NCBI RefSeq assembly: GCF_004151485.1
Contig: NZ_SBFF01000008.1
Location: 62,001 to 126,000 of the forward strand
Source: Sphingosinicella sp. CPCC 101087
GTDB lineage: Bacteria > Pseudomonadota > Alphaproteobacteria > Sphingomonadales > Sphingomonadaceae
Length of the DNA: 64,000 nt
Direction: 5' to 3'
Part shown: positions 44,059 to 56,168 of the stretch, piece after piece
Layout: the number at the start of each line of letters is the position of its first letter
Position numbering within the stretch: position 1 is the stretch's first letter
Translations under genes and position numbers: made by a program
The notes under the pieces: model-generated
What the model was told of the DNA's origin: nothing
The model's database searches: none
The model's input: only the letters and a program-made list of their open reading frames with translations

Positions 44059-44676
44059 TCAGCTGTCCGCATATTTGACCGCGCAGCCATAGGGACGGCT
44101 CGTCGACACGGAGACGGCCCTTCCGGCCTTGAGTTCCGAGAGCGCCGCCAACACATGATTGCGGGCGCCGTCGATATCGGCCGGATTGGCGGTCGGCCTG
44201 TCGTCGATGCCCCCGGCGTAGACGAGGGTGCCCGCCCTGTTGACGATATACATGTGCGGTGTGGTCCTCGCTTCATAGGCTCTGCCCACATCGCCGCGTG
44301 GATCGAGCAGATAGGCGGCCGGGCGAGCGCCCGCCCTGGCGAGAAGGGCGTTGGCTTCGGCGCCGCTCATGTGGCCCTGCTTGCCGGGCGCGCCGGAATT
44401 GATGGTCAGCCAGACGACACCGTCCCTCGCCGCAGCCGTCTGCGCCCTTTGCATGTTGCGGCTGTCATAATGCTTCCGCACGAACGGACAGCCGGGATTG
44501 TGCCATTCGAGCACCACCGTCTTGCCTCGGAAGTCGGAAAGGCTGACGGACCTGCCGTTCGTGTCGGCCAGCGTGAAGCTGGGCGCGGGCTGGCCCACCA
44601 CCGCGGCCGCCGAGGCGGGCGCGGCAATGACGGCGAGAGCGGCGAAAGCCGTGAAAGCGGATAGCATCTTCATCAT
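44059..44676 (-). CDS. Exported redoxin (AhpC/TSA-like thioredoxin fold)
   Basis: A 205-residue protein with a signal peptide (MMKMLSAFTAFAALAVIAAP, cleaved near ASAAA). The thioredoxin-fold domain shows VVGQPAPSFTLADTNGRSVSLSDFRGKTVVLEWHNPGCPFVRKHY with a peroxidatic-type Cys63 and a cis-Pro in EARTTPHMYIVNR. It probably reduces peroxides or disulfides in the periplasm. It lies 14 bases after the dsbD stop, so DsbD may be its electron donor. A second cysteine is near the C-terminus (PYGCAVKY). Confidence 0.87.
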   Translation of the reverse strand: MMKMLSAFTAFAALAVIAAPASAAAVVGQPAPSFTLADTNGRSVSLSDFRGKTVVLEWHNPGCPFVRKHYDSRNMQRAQTAAARDGVVWLTINSGAPGKQGHMSGAEANALLARAGARPAAYLLDPRGDVGRAYEARTTPHMYIVNRAGTLVYAGGIDDRPTANPADIDGARNHVLAALSELKAGRAVSVSTSRPYGCAVKYADS

Positions 44677-44690
44677 CTTGGCGTTCCTTT

Positions 44691-46793
44691 TCAGCTGACC
44701 ATCGACACGAGCCGCGAGGGGGTCAGAACCTGCGGCAGGATTTCGACCGGCTTGCCCGGCTCGAAATAAAGGTAGAGGGGCACGCCCGAGCGGCCGTGCC
44801 TCTCCAGGAAGCGGCCGATCTCCGCGTCACCCCGGGTCCAGTCGCCCACCAGCACCGCCACCTGCCTGGCGGCGAAAGCCTGCGCGACCTGCTCGCGCTC
44901 GAGCGAGCCCTTCTCGTTGACCTTGCAGGTGACGCACCAGTCGGCGGTGAAATAGACGAAGACGCGCCGCCCCTCCTGTCGAAGGGCGGCAAGGCGTGCC
45001 TCGGTGAACGGCTCGGCATCGAGCTCATTCCGGGAGGCGGCCGTCGCCGGCTCTGCAGCGACGCTCGGAACGAGGACCATGGCCGCGACGGCGGCAAGGG
45101 CGGCTGGCGCGAGCGGTACCCAGGGACCCCGGCTCCCCTGCCCCCCGCGCCACTGCCTGCTCCCGACCCACCACAAGGCGAGGGCGAGCACCATCGCCGC
45201 GGCAAGCCCGAGCGCCATCCCGTCCACGCCCGCCTGGCGGCCGAGGATCCAGGCGAGGGCGAGCGCCGTGAGGAACATCGGCACCGACATGAGCCGCCGG
45301 AACCGCTCCATCCACGAGCCCGGCTTCGGCAGAAGGCGCCGGAGCGCGGGCACGAAGCCGAGGAGCAGGAACGGCAAGGCGAGACCCAGGCCCAGGCCTG
45401 CGAAAATGGCGAGCGCGACGGGCGTGGAAAGCACGAGGGCTGCCCCGAGAGCGGCGCCCATGAAGGGTCCGGTGCAAGGCGTCGCCACGAACGCGGCGAG
45501 CGCGCCGGTCCAGAATGCGCCGCCTAGCCCGCGCCGCTCGGCAAGGCGGCCGCCTGCGGCCAGGGCGGGAAGCTGGAACAAGCCTGCCAGATTCAGCGCG
45601 ACGGCCGTGATGAGCAGGAGCAGCGCCAGGATGACCCGCGGGTCCTGGAGCTGAAACGCCCAGCCGGCCGCGACTCCGGCCGCCCGAAGGCCGAGCAAGG
45701 CGGCCCCGAGCCCAAGGCAGATCAGCACGGCCCCCGCCGTGTAGGCGATCGCTTCTCGCTTCGCGCCGCCTTCGTCGCCACCCGCTTTCGCAAGGCTCAG
45801 CGCCTTCAGGCTCAGGATCGGGAAGACGCAAGGCATGATGTTGAGCAGCAGTCCCCCGAGGACGGCACCCATCAAGGCGGCCAGCACGGCGGACGCGCCC
45901 GGCGCCGTCTGCGCGCCCTCCGACTCCGCGGAAGTTCCGGCGGCGGGAACGATGCCCGGCACCGCCCTCAGCGACAGGCCGTTGCCGTCGCCCAGCTTCA
46001 GCACGCCTTCGACGACGTCTAGGCTGCCGCCGTTCGGAGGCGCCTCCGTCTCGAGGATCAGCGTGTCGCCGGCGCGGGAGAAGGTCTGCGCCGCCGCATA
46101 GGAAAGCGCGCCGTCGGTCAGCGGATAGAAATAGGGTTCGCCAAGCTCCAGCCCGGTTGGAAGCGGGATGGCCAGCCGGAAGCGGCCTCCGGCCCGCTCG
46201 AACCGCGCCTCGCTTCCGAGCGGCCTCGGCAGCGCCAGGCGGAAGCGGTCGAACATCGCTCGGTTCGCCTGTGCAGCCGGTGCCGAGCCCGTCTCCAGAT
46301 CGACGGCGACGTTCGCGGTTTCCGGCACGCAGATCTCGTCGGTGCAGGCGAGATAATCGACCCGTGCGCGGACCGGCAGCCTGGTGCCGGGCGCCAGGTC
46401 CGCGGGCACGCTCACTTCGATGAGCTGCGCGTAATCGCCCTCGTAGACATAGTTCATCAGCCCGGCGACGATCAGCCGCCCGGGCACCGGATACTGGATC
46501 GGTCCGGCTTGGAGGCCGGCAGGAAGCTGCCAGGCGATCTGCGTCTCCATGCCGCTGTCGCCGGGATTCTTCCAATAGCCGTGCCAGCCCTGCGAGGGCC
46601 GCATCATCAGCGCGAGCGTCACGGTTTCTCCAGGGACGACGACGGCGGATTCCGGAATGAGGCTGGCGGCGATCGCGTTCGTGCCCGGCTGCGGAAGCTG
46701 CGCGTGCGCGGCAGCGCCGAGCAGCATGGCCGTCAGCCATGTCGCGACCCAGCACCCGTATCCCCGCACGGCAACACTGACAAACCGAGGCAT
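44691..46793 (-). CDS. DsbD-like thiol:disulfide interchange protein
   Basis: A 700-residue DsbD-like protein. A signal peptide is followed by an N-terminal domain (about residues 40-260), a central eight-helix membrane domain (SAVLAALMGAVLGGLLLNIMPCVFPILSLKALS with the conserved Pro-Cys, and FVATPCTGPFMG as the second cysteine) and a C-terminal thioredoxin domain whose redox motif is FTADWCVTCK (Cys620, Cys623). It carries electrons from cytoplasmic thioredoxin to periplasmic substrates, possibly including the adjacent redoxin. The N-terminal domain looks like the longer proteobacterial 'thiol:disulfide interchange' form. Confidence 0.92.
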   Translation of the reverse strand: MPRFVSVAVRGYGCWVATWLTAMLLGAAAHAQLPQPGTNAIAASLIPESAVVVPGETVTLALMMRPSQGWHGYWKNPGDSGMETQIAWQLPAGLQAGPIQYPVPGRLIVAGLMNYVYEGDYAQLIEVSVPADLAPGTRLPVRARVDYLACTDEICVPETANVAVDLETGSAPAAQANRAMFDRFRLALPRPLGSEARFERAGGRFRLAIPLPTGLELGEPYFYPLTDGALSYAAAQTFSRAGDTLILETEAPPNGGSLDVVEGVLKLGDGNGLSLRAVPGIVPAAGTSAESEGAQTAPGASAVLAALMGAVLGGLLLNIMPCVFPILSLKALSLAKAGGDEGGAKREAIAYTAGAVLICLGLGAALLGLRAAGVAAGWAFQLQDPRVILALLLLITAVALNLAGLFQLPALAAGGRLAERRGLGGAFWTGALAAFVATPCTGPFMGAALGAALVLSTPVALAIFAGLGLGLALPFLLLGFVPALRRLLPKPGSWMERFRRLMSVPMFLTALALAWILGRQAGVDGMALGLAAAMVLALALWWVGSRQWRGGQGSRGPWVPLAPAALAAVAAMVLVPSVAAEPATAASRNELDAEPFTEARLAALRQEGRRVFVYFTADWCVTCKVNEKGSLEREQVAQAFAARQVAVLVGDWTRGDAEIGRFLERHGRSGVPLYLYFEPGKPVEILPQVLTPSRLVSMVS

Positions 46794-46924
46794 GTCTGCT
46801 CCTCCAATCTGGTCCGTCCTGTGTGCCCCTCCCCTCCAATCCGGATAAGTGCCGGACGTCCCGCTCCGGAACCGTGACTTTCGGCCTATGGTCAGGGCTC
46901 TGAATCCGTGGCAAAAATCTCCGT

Positions 46925-48964
46925 ATGGCAGGCCAGCTCAGACGTTCGCACCGTTGGATTTCCTGCATCGCCGCGCTGGCTGTCTGGCTGGCTTTGGGTT
47001 GGCCGAGCCTTCAGGCGTTGGTGACCGGCACGGCCCTGCGGGGCTCGGCCGTGCCGGCGGTCTGGCTTGTCCCCTTCACGCTTTTCGGAGCGGCCGTCGT
47101 CGCCGCCATGGTCCTGAATCCGCGAACGAGCCTTCGATGGACCTTGCTGTGCGCCCAGCTTTCTGCGGTCCTGGCGATGACGGTCATCGCTCCAAGATCA
47201 CCGCTCTCGATCTTCCTCTGCATCATCGCCTGGCAGGTGGCGATGGCGACCACGCCGGCCAAGGCTCTGGCTTGGGTCGCATTTCAGACGCTGGCGATCA
47301 TCGGCACGCTTGCGCTCGCCTCGAATGCCGGTCTGTCCTACGTCGTCGGCCTGGCCTTCGTGCTGCAGCTTTGCTTCGTTTTCACGGCGCGCGCGCTGCG
47401 CGTGGAGGCGGCAACGGCGCGAACCCTGGCCCGGGCGAACGCAGAGTTGCGATCCGCGCAAGCCATCATCGCCAACACGGTGCGCGAAGCGGAGCGCCTG
47501 CGTATCTCGCGCGAGCTGCACGATGCCTGGGGCCACGAGCTGACCGCGCTCGGGCTGCAGCTCGAGATCGCAAGCCACGTGGCCGAGCCCGGCCGGGCGA
47601 ACGATCATGTGAGCAAGGCGAAAGGCCTCGCCGGCGCCCTCCTTGCCAAGGTGCGCGACGCCGTCGCCACTCTGCGGGAGGCTGAACGCGGTGATTCGAG
47701 GGATGGGCCATGGGCGCTTGCGCACGGCGTGCGTGCCCCGGCCATTCATGTGCCAGCCATTGATGTGGACGTGTCTCCCGACGCGCGGCCTGGCATGCGC
47801 CATGGCAGTTTTTCCCTCATGGCAGGCCACGGAAGCCAGCATTACTGGTTCTTTTGCTGCGCGGCGCTGGCTGTTTGCCTGGCTCTGGGCTGGCCGGTCC
47901 TGCAGACGTTTACCACCGGCACGGCGCTGCGTGGTTCTGCCGTGCCGGCGCTCTGGCTCGTCGCCTTCGCGCTCTTCGGAGGGGCCGTCGCCGCCGCGAT
48001 GGTCCTGAAGTTGCGGACCGGCCTTCGCTGGACCTTGCTGTGCGTCCAGCTTGCCGCGGTCGTGGCGATGGCGCTCGTCGTTCCATGGGCCATGATGTCG
48101 GTGTTCCTGATCATCATCGCCTGGCAGGTCGCGATGGCGACAACGCCGCTCAAGGCGCTGGCTTGGGTCGCCTTCCAGACGCTGGCGATCGTCGGCACGC
48201 TTGCCCTGGCTCCGAAACCCGATTTTTGCTGGGTCCTCGGCAAGTCTTTCGCGCTGCAGCTATGCTTCGTATTCACGGCACAGGCGCTGCGAATGGGGGC
48301 TGAAACGGCGCGAGCCCTGGCTCGGACCAACGCAGAGCTGCAGTCGGCGCAAGCCATCATCGCCAACACGGTGCGCAACGCGGAGCGCCTGCGCATCTCG
48401 CGCGAGCTGCACGATGCCTGGGGCCACGAGCTGACCGCGCTCGGGCTGCAGCTCGAGATCGCAAGCCACGTGGCCGAGCCCGGCCGGGCGAACGATCATG
48501 TGAGGCAGGCGAAAGGCCTGGCCGGCGCCCTCCTCGCCAAGGTGCGCGACGTCGTCGCCACTCTGCGGGAGGCCGAACGCTGCGACCTGAAGGATGCGCT
48601 GGAGGCGCTTGCGAAACGCGTGCCTGTTCCGGCCATTCATGTCGACGTCTCTCCCGACGTGCGGGTCAGCCCCGACCAGGCGCACGCCCTCATGCGTTGT
48701 GCGCAGGAAGCCGTGACCAACGCCGTCAGGCACGCACAGGCCGCCAACCTGTGGCTTCAGGTGACTTCGAATGGCGAAGGCGTGCGTCTTGTCGCGCGCA
48801 ACGACGGCAGCGCGCGTCCCGCCGCCTCCCCTCCCGGGTCGGGGCTTCTCGGCATGCGCGAGCGGGTGGAGTCTCTCGGCGGCAGGCTGGCGGTGCGGAC
48901 GGGAGCCGGCTTCGGCTTCACCGTCGAGGCCTGGCTGCCTTCGGCTGCGCCGCAAGCCGTATGA
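46925..48964 (+). CDS. Sensor histidine kinase with internal tandem duplication of sensor and DHp domains
   Basis: A continuous 679-residue frame that contains two copies of the same module. Copy 1 (residues 1-298) has six predicted membrane helices and a HisKA_3 dimerisation helix with RELHDAWGHEL (His199), but ends where the ATPase domain should begin. Copy 2 (residues 299-679, own ATG at 47819) repeats the membrane sensor and DHp (His496) and continues through the ATPase domain (N-box QEAVTNAVRHA, G-box GSGLLGMRERV). Copy 2 alone is a normal DesK/NarX-type kinase. DHp copies are nearly identical (7 differences in 199 bases) while sensor parts are clearly diverged. It pairs with the NarL-type regulator that overlaps its stop. 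Confidence 0.88.
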   Translation: MAGQLRRSHRWISCIAALAVWLALGWPSLQALVTGTALRGSAVPAVWLVPFTLFGAAVVAAMVLNPRTSLRWTLLCAQLSAVLAMTVIAPRSPLSIFLCIIAWQVAMATTPAKALAWVAFQTLAIIGTLALASNAGLSYVVGLAFVLQLCFVFTARALRVEAATARTLARANAELRSAQAIIANTVREAERLRISRELHDAWGHELTALGLQLEIASHVAEPGRANDHVSKAKGLAGALLAKVRDAVATLREAERGDSRDGPWALAHGVRAPAIHVPAIDVDVSPDARPGMRHGSFSLMAGHGSQHYWFFCCAALAVCLALGWPVLQTFTTGTALRGSAVPALWLVAFALFGGAVAAAMVLKLRTGLRWTLLCVQLAAVVAMALVVPWAMMSVFLIIIAWQVAMATTPLKALAWVAFQTLAIVGTLALAPKPDFCWVLGKSFALQLCFVFTAQALRMGAETARALARTNAELQSAQAIIANTVRNAERLRISRELHDAWGHELTALGLQLEIASHVAEPGRANDHVRQAKGLAGALLAKVRDVVATLREAERCDLKDALEALAKRVPVPAIHVDVSPDVRVSPDQAHALMRCAQEAVTNAVRHAQAANLWLQVTSNGEGVRLVARNDGSARPAASPPGSGLLGMRERVESLGGRLAVRTGAGFGFTVEAWLPSAAPQAV

Positions 48965-49605
48965 TCCGGGTCTTCATCGTCGACGACCAGACGCTGGTCC
49001 GCCAGGGCGTGCGCGGCTTGCTCGAGCTGGTGCCCGACATGGAGGTGGTGGGAGAGGCGAGCGACGGCGAGGAGGCGCTGGAAAAGGTTCCGGAGCTCGG
49101 GCCCGACGTGCTCCTCCTCGATATCCGCATGCCCCGGCTCGACGGCATCGCCGTTCTGGAGGGTCTGCGCAAGGCGGACGCGCTGCCGCCCACACTGGTT
49201 TTGACGACGTTCGAGGACGGCGACGCCGCGATCGCGGCGATCAAGGCAGGCGCCAAGGGCCTGATGCTCAAGGATGTCTCGCTGGAGGATTTGGCGCAGG
49301 CGATACGCGCCCTGGCCGACGACAAGACGGCCTTCCAGCCCGCCATGACCGAGAGCCTGATGGCGGCGCTCCGCCGCAGCCCTTCGGTTTCGTCCGACAC
49401 CTACGTCGCCGAGGTGCTCACCGCTCGCGAGAAGGAGGTGCTGCACCTGATCTGCGCCGGCTACAGCAACAGGGAGATCGCCGATCTGCTGGCGCTGGCG
49501 GAGGGGACCGTGAAGAACCACGTTTCCAACCTCCTGCTGAAGCTCGATGCCCGCGACAGAACTCGGGCAGCGCTCAAGGCCTTGCAGCAGGGGCATTTGG
49601 GCTAG
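48961..49605 (+). CDS. NarL/FixJ-family response regulator
   Basis: A 214-residue regulator. The receiver domain shows FIVDDQTLVRQGV, phospho-acceptor Asp54 in PDVLLLDIRMPRLDG, and the switch lysine in AKGLMLKDVS. The LuxR-type DNA-binding domain is at about residues 148-205 (LTAREKEVLHLICAGYSNREIADLLALAEGTVKNHVSNLLLKL). Its ATG overlaps the kinase stop (ATGA), marking the pair as a cognate two-component system. The target genes are not evident; dsbD, divergent from the kinase, is a candidate. Confidence 0.93.
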   Translation: MIRVFIVDDQTLVRQGVRGLLELVPDMEVVGEASDGEEALEKVPELGPDVLLLDIRMPRLDGIAVLEGLRKADALPPTLVLTTFEDGDAAIAAIKAGAKGLMLKDVSLEDLAQAIRALADDKTAFQPAMTESLMAALRRSPSVSSDTYVAEVLTAREKEVLHLICAGYSNREIADLLALAEGTVKNHVSNLLLKLDARDRTRAALKALQQGHLG

Positions 49606-50920: not shown

Positions 50921-52066
50921 TTGTCGCGCGCCGCCGCCGATGCCAGACTTGGCACTGTGCTGCACCAGCCCCTCGATCCGGCCGCCGTCCTCGAAGACGG
51001 TGAGCCGCCGGCGCGCACGACGAGCGAACGCACGCGCGCCGTCCTGTGGTTGACGGCGGCCTTCTGGGGCTCGAACGTCGCCATCTTCACCTTCGCCAAC
51101 TGGCTGGAAGGCCATCCCCTGCTGTACGAAATGGCGGGAATGCGGCTGCTGCTGGCGGGCCTCGGATATCTGCTGAGCCTCGCCATATTAGCGATCCTTC
51201 ACCGGCTCGCCCATCGGACGCTGCGCGTACGCGCCGTGGTGCTCATCGCCGCCGCGGCGGTGGCAGCCGAAGTTTATGCCTGGCTCAGCTTCTTCGGCTT
51301 TGCCCTGATCAGCGGCGGTTCGTTCCATCCGGATATCAATCTGGCCAATGCGATCACGACGGTAGCGACGTGGAGCTGGTTCTTCATCGCTTGGGCGGCC
51401 TTGTGCACGGTCCTTGAATATCATTTCGACGTTCAGGACGAGCGGCTGCGCACCGCGCAGTTCAAGGCGCTCGCCGAGAAGGCCAAGCAGCGCGCCCTCC
51501 ACAATCAGGTCAATCCCCACTTCCTGTTCAACAGCCTCAACTCGATTTCCGCCTTGATCAACGACCGCCGCATCGAAAGCGCCGATCGGATGATCGACCT
51601 GCTGGCGACCTATTTCCGCAAGATGCTGGCGGTCGACCCCTCTGCCGAGATCACGCTCAGAGAGGAAATCGGGCTGCAGATGGAATATCTGGAGATTGAG
51701 CGCGCCCGCTACGATGACCTCGACGTGGAGATCGACCTTGAAACCGGACTCGACGCGGCGACCGTCCCGGCCTTGCTGCTCCAACCTCTGGTGGAGAATG
51801 CGGTAAAGCACGGTGTCGCCCGGTCGCAGCCTCCCGTCCGAATCGTCATTCGAGCCCGCCGCAAGGATGGCTCGCTGGAGATCGCCGTCGAAAATCACGG
51901 CCAGATCACCCGGAGCGCGTCCGCGAAGGGAACCGGGCTCGGCCTCGCCAACGTCCGCGAGCGCCTGCACAACCGTTTCGGCGAACGGCAGTCGTTGCGG
52001 GCGGCGCCGATGGTAGGCGGCGGCTTCGCCGCGATCGTCGAGCTTCCGCTCAGCGGGGCGTCATGA
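50921..52066 (+). CDS. LytS/YehU-type sensor histidine kinase
   Basis: A 381-residue kinase of the LytS/YehU (His_kinase) family. Four membrane helices (about residues 42-62, 72-94, 103-131 and 145-166) precede the signature NQVNPHFLFNSLNSISALI, with His200. The ATPase domain shows PALLLQPLVENAVKHGVA and a G-box GTGLGLANVRERL. The overlapping LytTR gene marks it as its cognate sensor. TTG 50921 is the longest start; GTG 50957 is an alternative that keeps all domains. The ligand is unknown. Confidence 0.9.
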   Translation: MSRAAADARLGTVLHQPLDPAAVLEDGEPPARTTSERTRAVLWLTAAFWGSNVAIFTFANWLEGHPLLYEMAGMRLLLAGLGYLLSLAILAILHRLAHRTLRVRAVVLIAAAAVAAEVYAWLSFFGFALISGGSFHPDINLANAITTVATWSWFFIAWAALCTVLEYHFDVQDERLRTAQFKALAEKAKQRALHNQVNPHFLFNSLNSISALINDRRIESADRMIDLLATYFRKMLAVDPSAEITLREEIGLQMEYLEIERARYDDLDVEIDLETGLDAATVPALLLQPLVENAVKHGVARSQPPVRIVIRARRKDGSLEIAVENHGQITRSASAKGTGLGLANVRERLHNRFGERQSLRAAPMVGGGFAAIVELPLSGAS

Positions 52067-52860
52067 CCGTGCTCCGGATCCTCACCGTCGATGACGAACC
52101 GCTCGCTTTGCTTCGCCTCGAGCAGGCGCTGCGCCGCATTCCGGATGTCGCCCATGTCGGTGCCGCCGCCAGCTGTCGCGAGGCGCTTGACAGCATCCAT
52201 TCCCTGCGCCCGGACGTCGTCCTGCTCGACATCAGCATGCGCGACGGGAGCGGCTTCGACGTGGTCGATCGGCTGAACGGCGAGGCGCCTCCGGCGATCG
52301 TCTTCGTCACGGCCTTCGATCATTTCGCCGTCCGGGCCTTCGAAACGAAGGCGGTCGATTATGTACTGAAGCCGGTGTCGTCGCAGCGACTCGGCGAGGC
52401 GATCGGCCGCGCTCGCGACCGGCTCGAGTCGGTCGACGCGGCCAACCAGCTCGCCGAGTTGCGCCTGGTGGTGGACGAGCTGCGCCGCGAGCTTCGCGAC
52501 GGGAAGGCGGCTGTCACGCGGGCAGAGCTGTGGATCCGCGGCAACGTCGGCGGCTATGTCCGAATCTTCTCCGACGAAATCGAATGGGTGAAGGCGGAGG
52601 ACGATTATGTCCGCCTCCATGTCGGCGACAAATCCTATCTGATGCGCTCGTCGCTTCGCGCTCTGGCGCCCAAGATCGACGCGGACCGCCAGTTCGTCCG
52701 CGTCCACCGCGCCGCCCTGGTCCGCAAGTCGGCCATTCGCGCGGTCCATCGCCTCCCGATCGGCCGGCTCGAGGTCGAGCTCCAGAGCGGCCAGAGGATC
52801 CCCACCGGTCGGGTTTATGCCCGCCAGCTCAAGGCGGTGATCGGCTCGACTCCGGCTTAG
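52063..52860 (+). CDS. LytTR-family response regulator
   Basis: A 265-residue regulator. The receiver has ILTVDDEPLALLRLEQAL, phospho-acceptor Asp56 in PDVVLLDISMRDGSG and VTAFDHFAVRAFETKAVDYVLKPV with the switch lysine. The LytTR DNA-binding domain is at about residues 155-260 (IEWVKAEDDYVRLHVGDKSYLMRSSLRAL; QFVRVHRAALVRKSAI). ATG overlaps the kinase stop (ATGA). LytTR proteins bind paired 9-mers 12-13 bases apart, exactly the pattern found in both flanking regions. Confidence 0.94.
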   Translation: MTVLRILTVDDEPLALLRLEQALRRIPDVAHVGAAASCREALDSIHSLRPDVVLLDISMRDGSGFDVVDRLNGEAPPAIVFVTAFDHFAVRAFETKAVDYVLKPVSSQRLGEAIGRARDRLESVDAANQLAELRLVVDELRRELRDGKAAVTRAELWIRGNVGGYVRIFSDEIEWVKAEDDYVRLHVGDKSYLMRSSLRALAPKIDADRQFVRVHRAALVRKSAIRAVHRLPIGRLEVELQSGQRIPTGRVYARQLKAVIGSTPA

Positions 52861-53204: not shown

Positions 53205-56168
53205 ATGACTGCAACCAGGAAATTGCTCGGCGCGCTGCTTTGCTCCGCCGCCATTCTAGGCACCGCGCAACCCGCCTTGGCGCAGGACGAAACCGGCGAG
53301 CTGCCCGCCGGGACTGGCACTGCCGACACGGCCCGCGACGGAGAGGCGATCATCGTCACAGGCTCACGCATCGCCCGGCGCGACCTCACCTCGAGCAGTC
53401 CCCTGGCCGTCGTCCAGGATGAGGAGTTCCGCCTGTCCGGCGCCGTGAACGTCGAGCAGGTCATCAATACGCTGCCGCAAGTCGTTCCCGGCGTGACAGC
53501 CTTCTCGAACAACCCCGGCGGCGGCGTGGCCACGGTCGACCTTCGCGGGCTGGGCGCGCAGCGGACCCTCGTTCTGGTCAACGGCCGGCGCTGGGTGTTC
53601 TTCGCGCCCAACCAGCAGGTCGACCTCAACACCATACCCAGCTTCCTTATCGACAGCGTCGACGTCGTCACGGGCGGGGCTTCGGCGGTCTACGGCTCGG
53701 ACGCACTCGCCGGCGTCGTGAACTTCCGCCTCCGCACCGATCTCGACGGCCTGATTGCCGGCGCGCAATACAGCATCACCGGCCGCGGCGACGGCGCACG
53801 CTACAACGCCTATGCGGCGATTGGGGCACCGTTCGCCGACGGCCGCGGCAACGTCACGGCCTATCTGGAATATTTCAACCGGGGTCAGATCATGGCTTCG
53901 GACCGGCGCTTCTCGATCTTTGCGCTGGGTGACAATGCCGACGACACGGGCCTGATCCCGCTGGGTTCCTCTTCGGTGCCGCAGGGCCGGCTCGTCGCCC
54001 CGGGCAGCATCGTCGTGAACGGTGTCACCCTGCCGATAGCGAACGGCACCAATTATGCCGGGCCGCTGCCAGGCAATCCCGGCGGCGCCTTCTTCGGGAC
54101 CGCGGGCATCAGCCGCCCCTATACCAACGCCGAGAGCCACAATTACGCACCCGAGAACTTCCTGATGGTGCCGCAGGAACGGTGGGTGCTCGGCGGCTTC
54201 GCCGAGTTCGAGCTGGCCGAGGGCATCAACGCCTATATCGAGGCGACTTACGCGAACAACCGGGTCCAGAACGAACTCGCCGCAACCCCGATCGCGGGAA
54301 ATGTCGACATCAATCTGGCGGCCGTCGAGCAGCATGTATCGCCTGCCGACTTCACGCAGCTCCAGACGATTGCTGCCCGGCAGCAGGCCGCAAATGCGGC
54401 GGCCCTGGCGGCCGGCAGTCCGCTGCCGTTCAACAACTTCACGATCGGCACCACGGCTCAGGCTGGGGTACCCCTGCCGGCCGGATTTGTGCGGCTGAAC
54501 GTGAACCAGCGCGTCATGCAGGTCGGCTCGCGCAATACCAGCTTCGAACAGGGGTCGTGGCGAACCCTGGCCGGCCTTCGGGGAGACCTGACCGATTCTC
54601 TCTCATACGATGTGTACTACTTGTTTGCGCGCAACCGGAACTCGAACATCCAGGGCGGGAACATCTCCCGCAGCGCCTTCAACCGGCTGGTCGCGGACGG
54701 CACCTGCAACATTTTCGGAGCCAACCAGCTCAGCGCGGCGTGCGTCGACCAGATTTCCATTCTGACGCAGAACACCACCATATCACAGCTCCAGGTGGCG
54801 CAGGCCAGCGTTTCGGGTCCACTCTTCACCTTCGCCTCGGCGAGCGAACCGGTCGCCTTCGCGGCCGGCCTGGAGTGGCGCAGCATCAGCGCGCAGTTCA
54901 TCCCCGACACCGCTTTGTCCTCCGGGGACGTCGTCGGATTCAATGCGGGGCTGCCGACCGCCGGCGCGTACAACGTGAAGGAAGCGTTTGCGGAGCTTCG
55001 CGTGCCGATCGTCCGCGACGGCTTCATCTACGGGATCGATCTCAACGGCGCCGCCCGCTACTCTGATTACTCGCTCGCCGCCGTGGGCGGAGTCTGGACC
55101 TATGCCGGCGGCGTGGAAATCGCCCCCATCCGCGACATCGCCCTGCGCGCACAATATCAACGCGCCGTTCGTGCACCGAACATCCTCGATCTGTTCGGTG
55201 GAGCCGGAATAGGCTTTCCGGCCGCGACCGATCCATGCGCCCTCGCTTCGGCGGCCACCGACCCGACCATCCGCGCCCTGTGCATCGCGACGGGCGTGCC
55301 GGAATCCGCGGTCGGGCAGTCGGGGCTTCAGCCGAACGCCCAGATCCAGGGGCGTTTCAGCGGCAATCCCGATCTGGAGGAGGAGGTTTCCGATACCTGG
55401 ACCGTGGGCGCGGTGATAAGGCCCAGCTTCATCCCACGGCTCAACATCACCATCGACTATTTCGACATCAAGGTCGTCAACGCCATCGCAGCGCGCGCGA
55501 ACGGCGTGAACAACGTCCTCAATTTCTGCTACAATGTCGTGCAGGACGTGAGCAGCATCTTCTGCCGCTCGATCACGCGCAATCCGCTCACGGGCGTGAT
55601 CGAGGGCGGGCCGTTCGTGGTCGACGCAACCAACGACAATCTCGGCGGCCTCGAGACGAGCGGAGTCGACCTGCAGGTCGACTATAGCGTCCCGTTGGAC
55701 TTCAGCCTTGTCGGCCAGGGCACCTCCCGCGTGAGCATGGCGCTACTCGGCACCTGGACCCGCAAGGCGGACTTCATCCCCGTGGCAGGGCTCGACGTCG
55801 TCAATCCGGGCGCCGGTCGGTTCGGGCTGATCGTCGGGGAGCCGATCCCGCGCTGGAGATGGTCCACCCGCATGTCCTTCATCGACGGCCCGGTTACCGC
55901 AAGTTTCAGATGGCGGCATACCGGCGCGGTGCGGGACGACAATGACACCGCGACCTACGTCGTCGAACGGATCGGTACCTACGACCTGTTCGACCTCTCC
56001 TTCGCCTTCGACGTCAGCGACGAGCTGACGCTGAATCTCGGCGTCAATAATCTGTTCGACCGGGAGCCGCCGATTGTCGGCGCGAACCAGTCCCAGTCCA
56101 ACACCTATCCCGGAACCTATGACGTGATCGGGCGGGACTTCTTCGTCTCGGCAAACCTGCGCTTCTGA
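53205..56168 (+). CDS. TonB-dependent receptor
   Basis: A 987-residue outer-membrane receptor. The signal peptide ends near residue 27 (QPALAQ). A TonB-box-like EAIIVTGSRIARRDL is followed by the plug (SSPLAVVQDEEFRLSGAVNVEQVINTLPQ; LRGLGAQRTLVLVNGRRWV; VDVVTGGASAVYGSDALAGVVNFRL) and a barrel ending VIGRDFFVSANLRF with terminal phenylalanine. There is no STN domain, so it does not use FecR signalling; a LytTR site lies in its leader instead. The form matches the long sphingomonad/Caulobacter receptors used for glycans, peptides or metal chelates. The ligand is unknown. Confidence 0.93.
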   Translation: MTATRKLLGALLCSAAILGTAQPALAQDETGELPAGTGTADTARDGEAIIVTGSRIARRDLTSSSPLAVVQDEEFRLSGAVNVEQVINTLPQVVPGVTAFSNNPGGGVATVDLRGLGAQRTLVLVNGRRWVFFAPNQQVDLNTIPSFLIDSVDVVTGGASAVYGSDALAGVVNFRLRTDLDGLIAGAQYSITGRGDGARYNAYAAIGAPFADGRGNVTAYLEYFNRGQIMASDRRFSIFALGDNADDTGLIPLGSSSVPQGRLVAPGSIVVNGVTLPIANGTNYAGPLPGNPGGAFFGTAGISRPYTNAESHNYAPENFLMVPQERWVLGGFAEFELAEGINAYIEATYANNRVQNELAATPIAGNVDINLAAVEQHVSPADFTQLQTIAARQQAANAAALAAGSPLPFNNFTIGTTAQAGVPLPAGFVRLNVNQRVMQVGSRNTSFEQGSWRTLAGLRGDLTDSLSYDVYYLFARNRNSNIQGGNISRSAFNRLVADGTCNIFGANQLSAACVDQISILTQNTTISQLQVAQASVSGPLFTFASASEPVAFAAGLEWRSISAQFIPDTALSSGDVVGFNAGLPTAGAYNVKEAFAELRVPIVRDGFIYGIDLNGAARYSDYSLAAVGGVWTYAGGVEIAPIRDIALRAQYQRAVRAPNILDLFGGAGIGFPAATDPCALASAATDPTIRALCIATGVPESAVGQSGLQPNAQIQGRFSGNPDLEEEVSDTWTVGAVIRPSFIPRLNITIDYFDIKVVNAIAARANGVNNVLNFCYNVVQDVSSIFCRSITRNPLTGVIEGGPFVVDATNDNLGGLETSGVDLQVDYSVPLDFSLVGQGTSRVSMALLGTWTRKADFIPVAGLDVVNPGAGRFGLIVGEPIPRWRWSTRMSFIDGPVTASFRWRHTGAVRDDNDTATYVVERIGTYDLFDLSFAFDVSDELTLNLGVNNLFDREPPIVGANQSQSNTYPGTYDVIGRDFFVSANLRF

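Follow-up and report, generated by a model that had tools for sequence, protein, structure and literature searches.

A sphingomonad histidine kinase with two sensor-DHp units and a single ATPase domain, recurring in several lineages, may contain a regulatory half-kinase

The window analysed here is a 64,000-nt stretch of contig NZ_SBFF01000008.1 from Sphingosinicella sp. CPCC 101087. Positions 46925-48964 of its forward strand form one uninterrupted frame of 679 codons, as claimed in an earlier note on this DNA, and encode a fused histidine kinase (679 aa) with two sensor-DHp units and one CA domain, all on the same strand. Copy 1 consists of a membrane sensor (residues 1-157, 46925-47395), a HisKA_3/DHp domain (residues 190-254, 47492-47686, His199 codon at 47519-47521) and a tail with linker (47690-47818). 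Copy 2 begins at residue 299, confirmed to be an ATG at 47819, and comprises a second membrane sensor (residues 299-455, 47819-48289), a second HisKA_3/DHp domain (residues 487-551, 48383-48577, His496 codon at 48410-48412) and the sole HATPase_c (CA) domain of the kinase (residues 587-673, 48683-48943). Pfam analysis of the 679 aa yielded HisKA_3 (PF07730) twice, HATPase_c once and no receiver, in agreement with the two HisKA_3 histidines and the ATP-binding domain confined to the second copy that the note had described.

The internal tandem duplication proposed for this frame is evident at the DNA level as a direct repeat (46955/47846, spacing 891, 80% identity across 300 nt); identity between the copies amounts to 69% for the sensor and 89% for the DHp part. 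A second DNA repeat (family D3; 40 nt, 85% identity, 47749/48625) is located at the beginning of the ATPase region. Its first member, an ATPase-start-like piece at 47749-47788 in the copy-1 tail, looks like a remnant of the lost domain and supports the proposed duplication of a kinase, with the copies fused in frame and no ATPase in the first. The six-helix sensor postulated in front of each DHp is consistent with a weak AlphaFold2 model, where five helices are predicted together with a sixth that continues into the DHp helix.

The kinase gene overlaps by an ATGA with a gene for a NarL-type response regulator (Response_reg and GerE; 48961-49605, forward strand). On the reverse strand, a DsbD-like thiol:disulfide transporter is encoded divergently (44691-46793), as well as a redoxin (AhpC-TSA, Redoxin; 44059-44676); dsbD also adjoins single-unit homologues of the kinase. 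The first codons and leader of the dsbD-like ORF (46740-46793, reverse strand) match the beginning of another gene in relatives (A2), and dsbD seems to have acquired a captured leader. A further two-component pair, unrelated to the first (His_kinase and HATPase_c; receiver and LytTR), occupies positions 50921-52860 and is adjoined by a TonB-dependent receptor (53205-56168).

The orthologue search proposed in the earlier note uncovered the double-unit layout in four other sphingomonad assemblies. Scanning of genome contigs, one genome per species, returned 12 loci, four of which code for the complete double protein: L024 (Sphingomonas MAG), L025 (Parapontixanthobacter aurantiacus), L026 (Alteripontixanthobacter muriae) and L034 (Actirhodobacter atriluteus). 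Each of them is one open frame of 655-659 aa, counted from the aligned ATG, with 57-69% identity (best segment) to the CPCC 101087 kinase, and in all four the regulator gene follows the kinase gene. All five double proteins including CPCC 101087 (655-679 aa) contain HisKA_3 above cut-off twice, and HATPase_c is found after the copy-2 DHp only and is absent after copy 1; it scores 26.4 bits in L025 and 25.8 bits, just below the 26.4 cut-off, in L034. With L025 and L034 being close, the five known sequences represent about four lineages.

In the family, the double form was present in 4 of the 397 genomes sampled out of a larger group (E <= 1e-80), CPCC 101087 counted. This search and those of the genus (26 genomes, E <= 1e-60), the order (396 genomes, likewise from a larger group), the relatives of G110 (392 genomes) and the genera of G110 and G128 (1 and 2 genomes), whose genome sets overlap, gave no doubles beyond CPCC 101087 and the species of L025, L026 and L034; L024 was recovered solely by the one-genome-per-species contig scan. 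Among plasmids, tblastn gave one match (35% identity over 42% of the query) and no double unit. Doubles were sought with this sensor type, and in layout counts that exclude the more distant kinases L003-L005 and L012-L023, a further 14 distinct close homologues show the usual layout with one unit. One single-unit homologue is a paralogue in the same genome (contig C42, 70% identity); since its downstream regulator gene is lost after about 20 codons (L002, 2676-2885), it looks like an orphan kinase.

An assembly collapse or sequencing error, named in the earlier note as a possible refutation, has nothing in its favour except the repeat itself. The same layout of four other assemblies in substance rules it out, and across the 300-nt repeat the copies show 20% DNA divergence; we therefore reject an artefact as extremely improbable. 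Judged from sequence, the double-unit layout is a conserved design, neither private nor a product of assembly.

Between the two copies of CPCC 101087, 36 codons spanning the H-box are identical in DNA (47504-47611 in copy 1, 48395-48502 in copy 2, forward strand). An identical run of this length was reached in none of 10,000 permutations of all codons and in 43 of 10,000 when equal-amino-acid codons were used. Sensor windows, by contrast, display 0.12-0.51 synonymous differences per site. Gene conversion is the simple reading of the H-box identity. A weaker tract of 12 codons occurs in L024 (116 of 10,000 permutations; 425 with equal-amino-acid codons), and the same test detected no identical tract above chance in L025, L026 and L034. 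With its H-box intact through this putative conversion, copy 1 of CPCC 101087 may still be phosphorylated.

Putative gene conversion also blurs phylogenetic trees of the units. Units of the four relatives cluster according to copy (copy-1 clade 97/99, copy-2 clade 95/98), and the best tree places CPCC 101087 copy 1 with the other copy 1s (support 89/19). A quick sensor tree likewise joins it to the other copy 1s (0.98), with its own copy 2 adjoining them, and in the DHp-only tree the copies are scattered, as expected under conversion. The tree joining both CPCC 101087 copies, which corresponds to independent duplication, has a log-likelihood lower by 17.8 and is not rejected (p-AU 0.124). Nor does the test reject trees in which the five copy 2s (p-AU 0.459) or the full set of ten units (p-AU 0.237) form one clade. 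Most likely, CPCC 101087 shares the same fusion as its four relatives.

Copy 1 deviates from its homologues in both domains. Invariant positions were defined on 18 copy-2 and single-unit rows, leaving out the distant homologue L011, which is also devoid of D-x-C-W. Five to eight of 22 invariant sensor positions are broken in copy 1s, compared with 0-3 when each of the 18 rows is left out in turn; for the DHp, it is 1-8 of 38 positions (one in CPCC 101087), compared with 0-1 in left-out rows. The D-x-C-W motif, situated at the start of helix 6 and probably outside the membrane, is gone from all five copy-1 sensors. In CPCC 101087, copy 2 keeps it as D433-F-C435-W436 (48221-48232), and G-L-S-Y stands in its place in copy 1 (47330-47341). 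Three substitutions are identical in all copy 1s (Ser for C435, Tyr for W436 and Val for A443), and four of five, CPCC 101087 being the exception, have P-K-D-L-M-S where others have x-W-A-x-M-S.

Such uniform replacement suggests a role of the copy-1 sensor rather than decay. Copy 1 could be a sensor of a second, different signal, its rebuilt loops feeding copy 2 mechanically, as would fit the shared Ser/Tyr/Val and P-K-D-L-M-S changes and the purifying selection on this sensor (see below). The loop change may be structural, though, and this reading overlaps with that of a regulatory half-kinase without excluding it; we consider it quite unlikely. The related idea in the earlier note, that the protein senses two related signals, has become a weaker possibility, since every copy 1 lacks the motif.

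In the DHp of copy 1, different residues are affected in different relatives. The phospho-His of the H-box is replaced by Asn in L025 and L034, and L026 has DxxxN in place of the phosphatase motif DxxxH. The Arg at the third position ahead of the H-box His survives solely in CPCC 101087, the other four of the five copy 1s having lost it. Both phospho-His and phosphatase residue are retained in L024, and H-box and DxxxH are both intact in CPCC 101087. Copy 2 has the H-box His in all five proteins and the phosphatase motif as DAWGH in four and DSWGH in L024, in line with the DxxxQ/H phosphatase motif following the His as it is outlined in PMC11502775 and PMC8199190. Since either chemical residue is lost in some relatives, we infer that neither phospho-acceptance nor phosphatase activity is a shared function of copy 1.

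These residues bear directly on the view that copy 1 is a working second phospho-site, with His199 and His496 both receiving phosphate from the one CA domain, or with copy 1 serving as phosphatase or phosphate sink, and with gene conversion preserving the copy-1 H-box in the CPCC 101087 lineage. The intact motifs and 36 identical codons of CPCC 101087 and the pair of residues retained in L024 are what this view would predict, but the replacements in L025, L034 and L026 and the loss of the H-box Arg show that such a site is not conserved, and we regard it as unlikely. Similarly, the decoy or phosphatase module suggested in the earlier note is not supported as a conserved function but could apply to CPCC 101087.

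Selection on copy 1 was estimated from the ten pairs among the five doubles, which are not independent. Copy-1 dN/dS spans 0.24-0.43 for the sensor and 0.08-0.45 for the DHp; for copy 2, the corresponding ranges in the same non-independent pairs are 0.19-0.38 and 0.11-0.40. The copy-1 ratio exceeds that of copy 2 in all 10 sensor pairs and in 8 of the 10 DHp pairs. Constraint on copy 1 thus appears somewhat looser than on copy 2, yet far from neutral. Given this slightly higher rate, some of the change in copy 1 may reflect relaxation and not a new role; purifying selection itself is silent on what copy 1 does. Synonymous distances among the doubles are 0.4-1.1 (0.06 for L025-L034), and the linker behind copy 1 is hardly alignable (pN 0.48-0.66, L025 versus L034 excepted).

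Start codons at the copy-2 border were compared among the doubles. CPCC 101087 has in-frame ATG codons at -24 and 0 and several GTG. In L026, a GTG is present at -81; L024 shows GTG codons at -69 and -30 and, within helix 1, an ATG at +39. Between -90 and +42 nt, L025 and L034 lack any ATG, GTG or TTG in frame. No start codon lies exactly at the border in any of the four relatives. This pattern indicates that separate initiation of copy 2 is not the rule and that selection would act on the fused product, at least in L025 and L034. Together with purifying selection, it leads us to infer that copy 1 is a maintained part of the protein.

The same data address the possibility that copy 1 is dying debris and only copy 2, expressed from the internal ATG at 47819, matters. 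The ATG at the copy-2 start, the other one in frame at -24 and the 30 nt across the former (19 upstream), which share 70% identity with the region where the gene itself starts, could be taken in its support. Against this, copy 1 has stayed open and under purifying selection over the above synonymous distances, and relatives lack a start at the border, two of them throughout the interval inspected; we find debris improbable. Expression from 47819 alone, which the earlier note had named as a refutation, is weakened by the relatives' borders as well, although the ATG itself is present in CPCC 101087.

Upstream of the kinase gene, we found a conserved 18-bp element, GTGACTTTCGGCCTATGG (46874-46891, forward strand), a probable operator or promoter element. 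The element, GTGACYTTYGGCCTATGG, starts 51 bp before the kinase ATG and is present upstream of all 19 homologous kinase genes examined with at most 4 substitutions. It also occurs at dsbD gene starts in six single-unit loci, and the same loose scan detected it in four other places, in L003, L008, L016 and L027. A shorter relative, GACCTACGGCACTTA, points the opposite way in divergent arrangements. In its own genome, the degenerate 18-bp form has four matches with at most 2 mismatches, the reversed control having none. These are at the fused kinase, the C42 paralogue and a kelch-repeat protein, and one, which may be due to chance, is inside a 349-aa frame. The kelch-repeat gene (L045, 298-1632, reverse strand, contig C1) has the element upstream with 1 mismatch and an apparent signal peptide in its product, and is a candidate regulon member.

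The 18-bp element is a probable regulator-binding site. A dsbD homologue is found near the kinase in CPCC 101087 and in 7 of 7 single-unit loci examined with long flanks; the four other doubles have in its place a divergent gene in common, which in L025 codes for an outer-membrane receptor (Pfam). Together, these observations suggest a small, envelope-related regulon of thiol/redox character; any particular signal is a guess.

Structure prediction of the full-length protein gave a weak AlphaFold2 model (mean pLDDT 66.8, pTM 0.46, 14 sequences) that is uninformative on DHp pairing; DesK holds ranks 1-27 in its Foldseek search. The single-unit model (mean pLDDT 76.0, pTM 0.44) matches CA domains and DesK, its sensor part being barely tested, and here the VraS CA domain and DesK tie.

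Taken together, we slightly favour the interpretation that a DesK/NarX-type (HisKA_3) kinase, copy 2, is fused to a degenerate regulatory half-kinase, copy 1. Copy 2, possessing His496 and the CA domain, would carry out phosphorylation and pass the phosphate to the overlapping NarL-type regulator. Copy 1, tethered in cis, would set the activity of copy 2 via contacts of membrane helices and DHp, much like free-standing pseudo-kinases acting in trans. The regulator would bind the 18-bp element and control its own genes and the divergent dsbD. From the dsbD and redoxin neighbours and the conserved Cys-Trp, we guess that the input could be a periplasmic thiol/redox or metal signal. More tentatively, the two DHps of one polypeptide might form a four-helix bundle, i.e. 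a natural single-chain DHp-DHp-CA kinase; the active kinase would then combine a degenerate and an active half as a built-in heterodimer (or monomer) and be nature's equivalent of engineered monomeric EnvZ (see below), a possibility to which we give limited credence.

Sensor kinases normally act as homodimers, in which the contributions of the two halves are difficult to separate. A fused asymmetric pair of one active and one degenerate half would offer a genetic handle, without mixed dimers, on cis and trans phosphorylation as well as on the tuning of an active kinase by a pseudo-kinase. Copy-1 H-boxes form a graded series in this respect: intact (CPCC 101087), Arg lost (L024), phosphatase residue lost (L026) and phospho-His lost (L025, L034).

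The statement of the earlier note that no standard architecture has this layout fits one census, in which 2 out of 15,704 non-hybrid kinases had multiple transmitters (PMC3018481), although a CA-less copy may have gone uncounted there. Among the matches listed from open-access literature (titles and abstract starts), no description of a sensor-DHp-sensor-DHp-CA kinase was found, and candidate matches inspected more closely concerned other things. DesK and NarX-NarQ kinases resemble copy 2 in having a membrane sensor, HisKA_3 DHp with H and DxxxH, HATPase_c and an adjacent receiver-GerE regulator, but have no second, CA-less sensor-DHp unit fused in front. Receiver-GerE regulators are likewise described as companions of HisKA_3 kinases in Streptococcus agalactiae (PMC11502775). 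TodS, as it is portrayed in PMC4861429, has two sensor-kinase modules per polypeptide like the CPCC 101087 kinase; in contrast, its two kinase domains are separated by a receiver and operate by phosphate relay, while the CPCC 101087 kinase has no receiver and its copy 1 no CA. The TodS-like arrangement of two kinase cores split by a receiver is hence not seen here.

Regulatory pseudo-kinases acting in trans, i.e. kinase-like partners devoid of working catalysis that alter the output of an active kinase, are known, RetS acting in this way on GacS. According to the account in PMC9491836, a ChrS variant whose CA is frameshifted increases output via the paralogous kinase HrrS and does so without needing its own His. 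The same account mentions that two-hybrid contact between truncated ChrS and HrrS was not seen and that deleting the CA entirely was less effective than the frameshift, and it refers to DivL as another regulatory pseudo-kinase acting in trans (PMC9491836). ChrS variant, DivL and RetS thus all act in trans, whereas here the putative pseudo-kinase is fused in cis and kept across several lineages. An engineered monomeric EnvZ with two DHps and one CA in one chain was reportedly active as a monomer (Qin et al. 2000). This is the nearest design known to us; it belongs to the HisKA family and has no membrane sensors, whereas the CPCC 101087 kinase is natural, of HisKA_3 type and equipped with membrane sensors.
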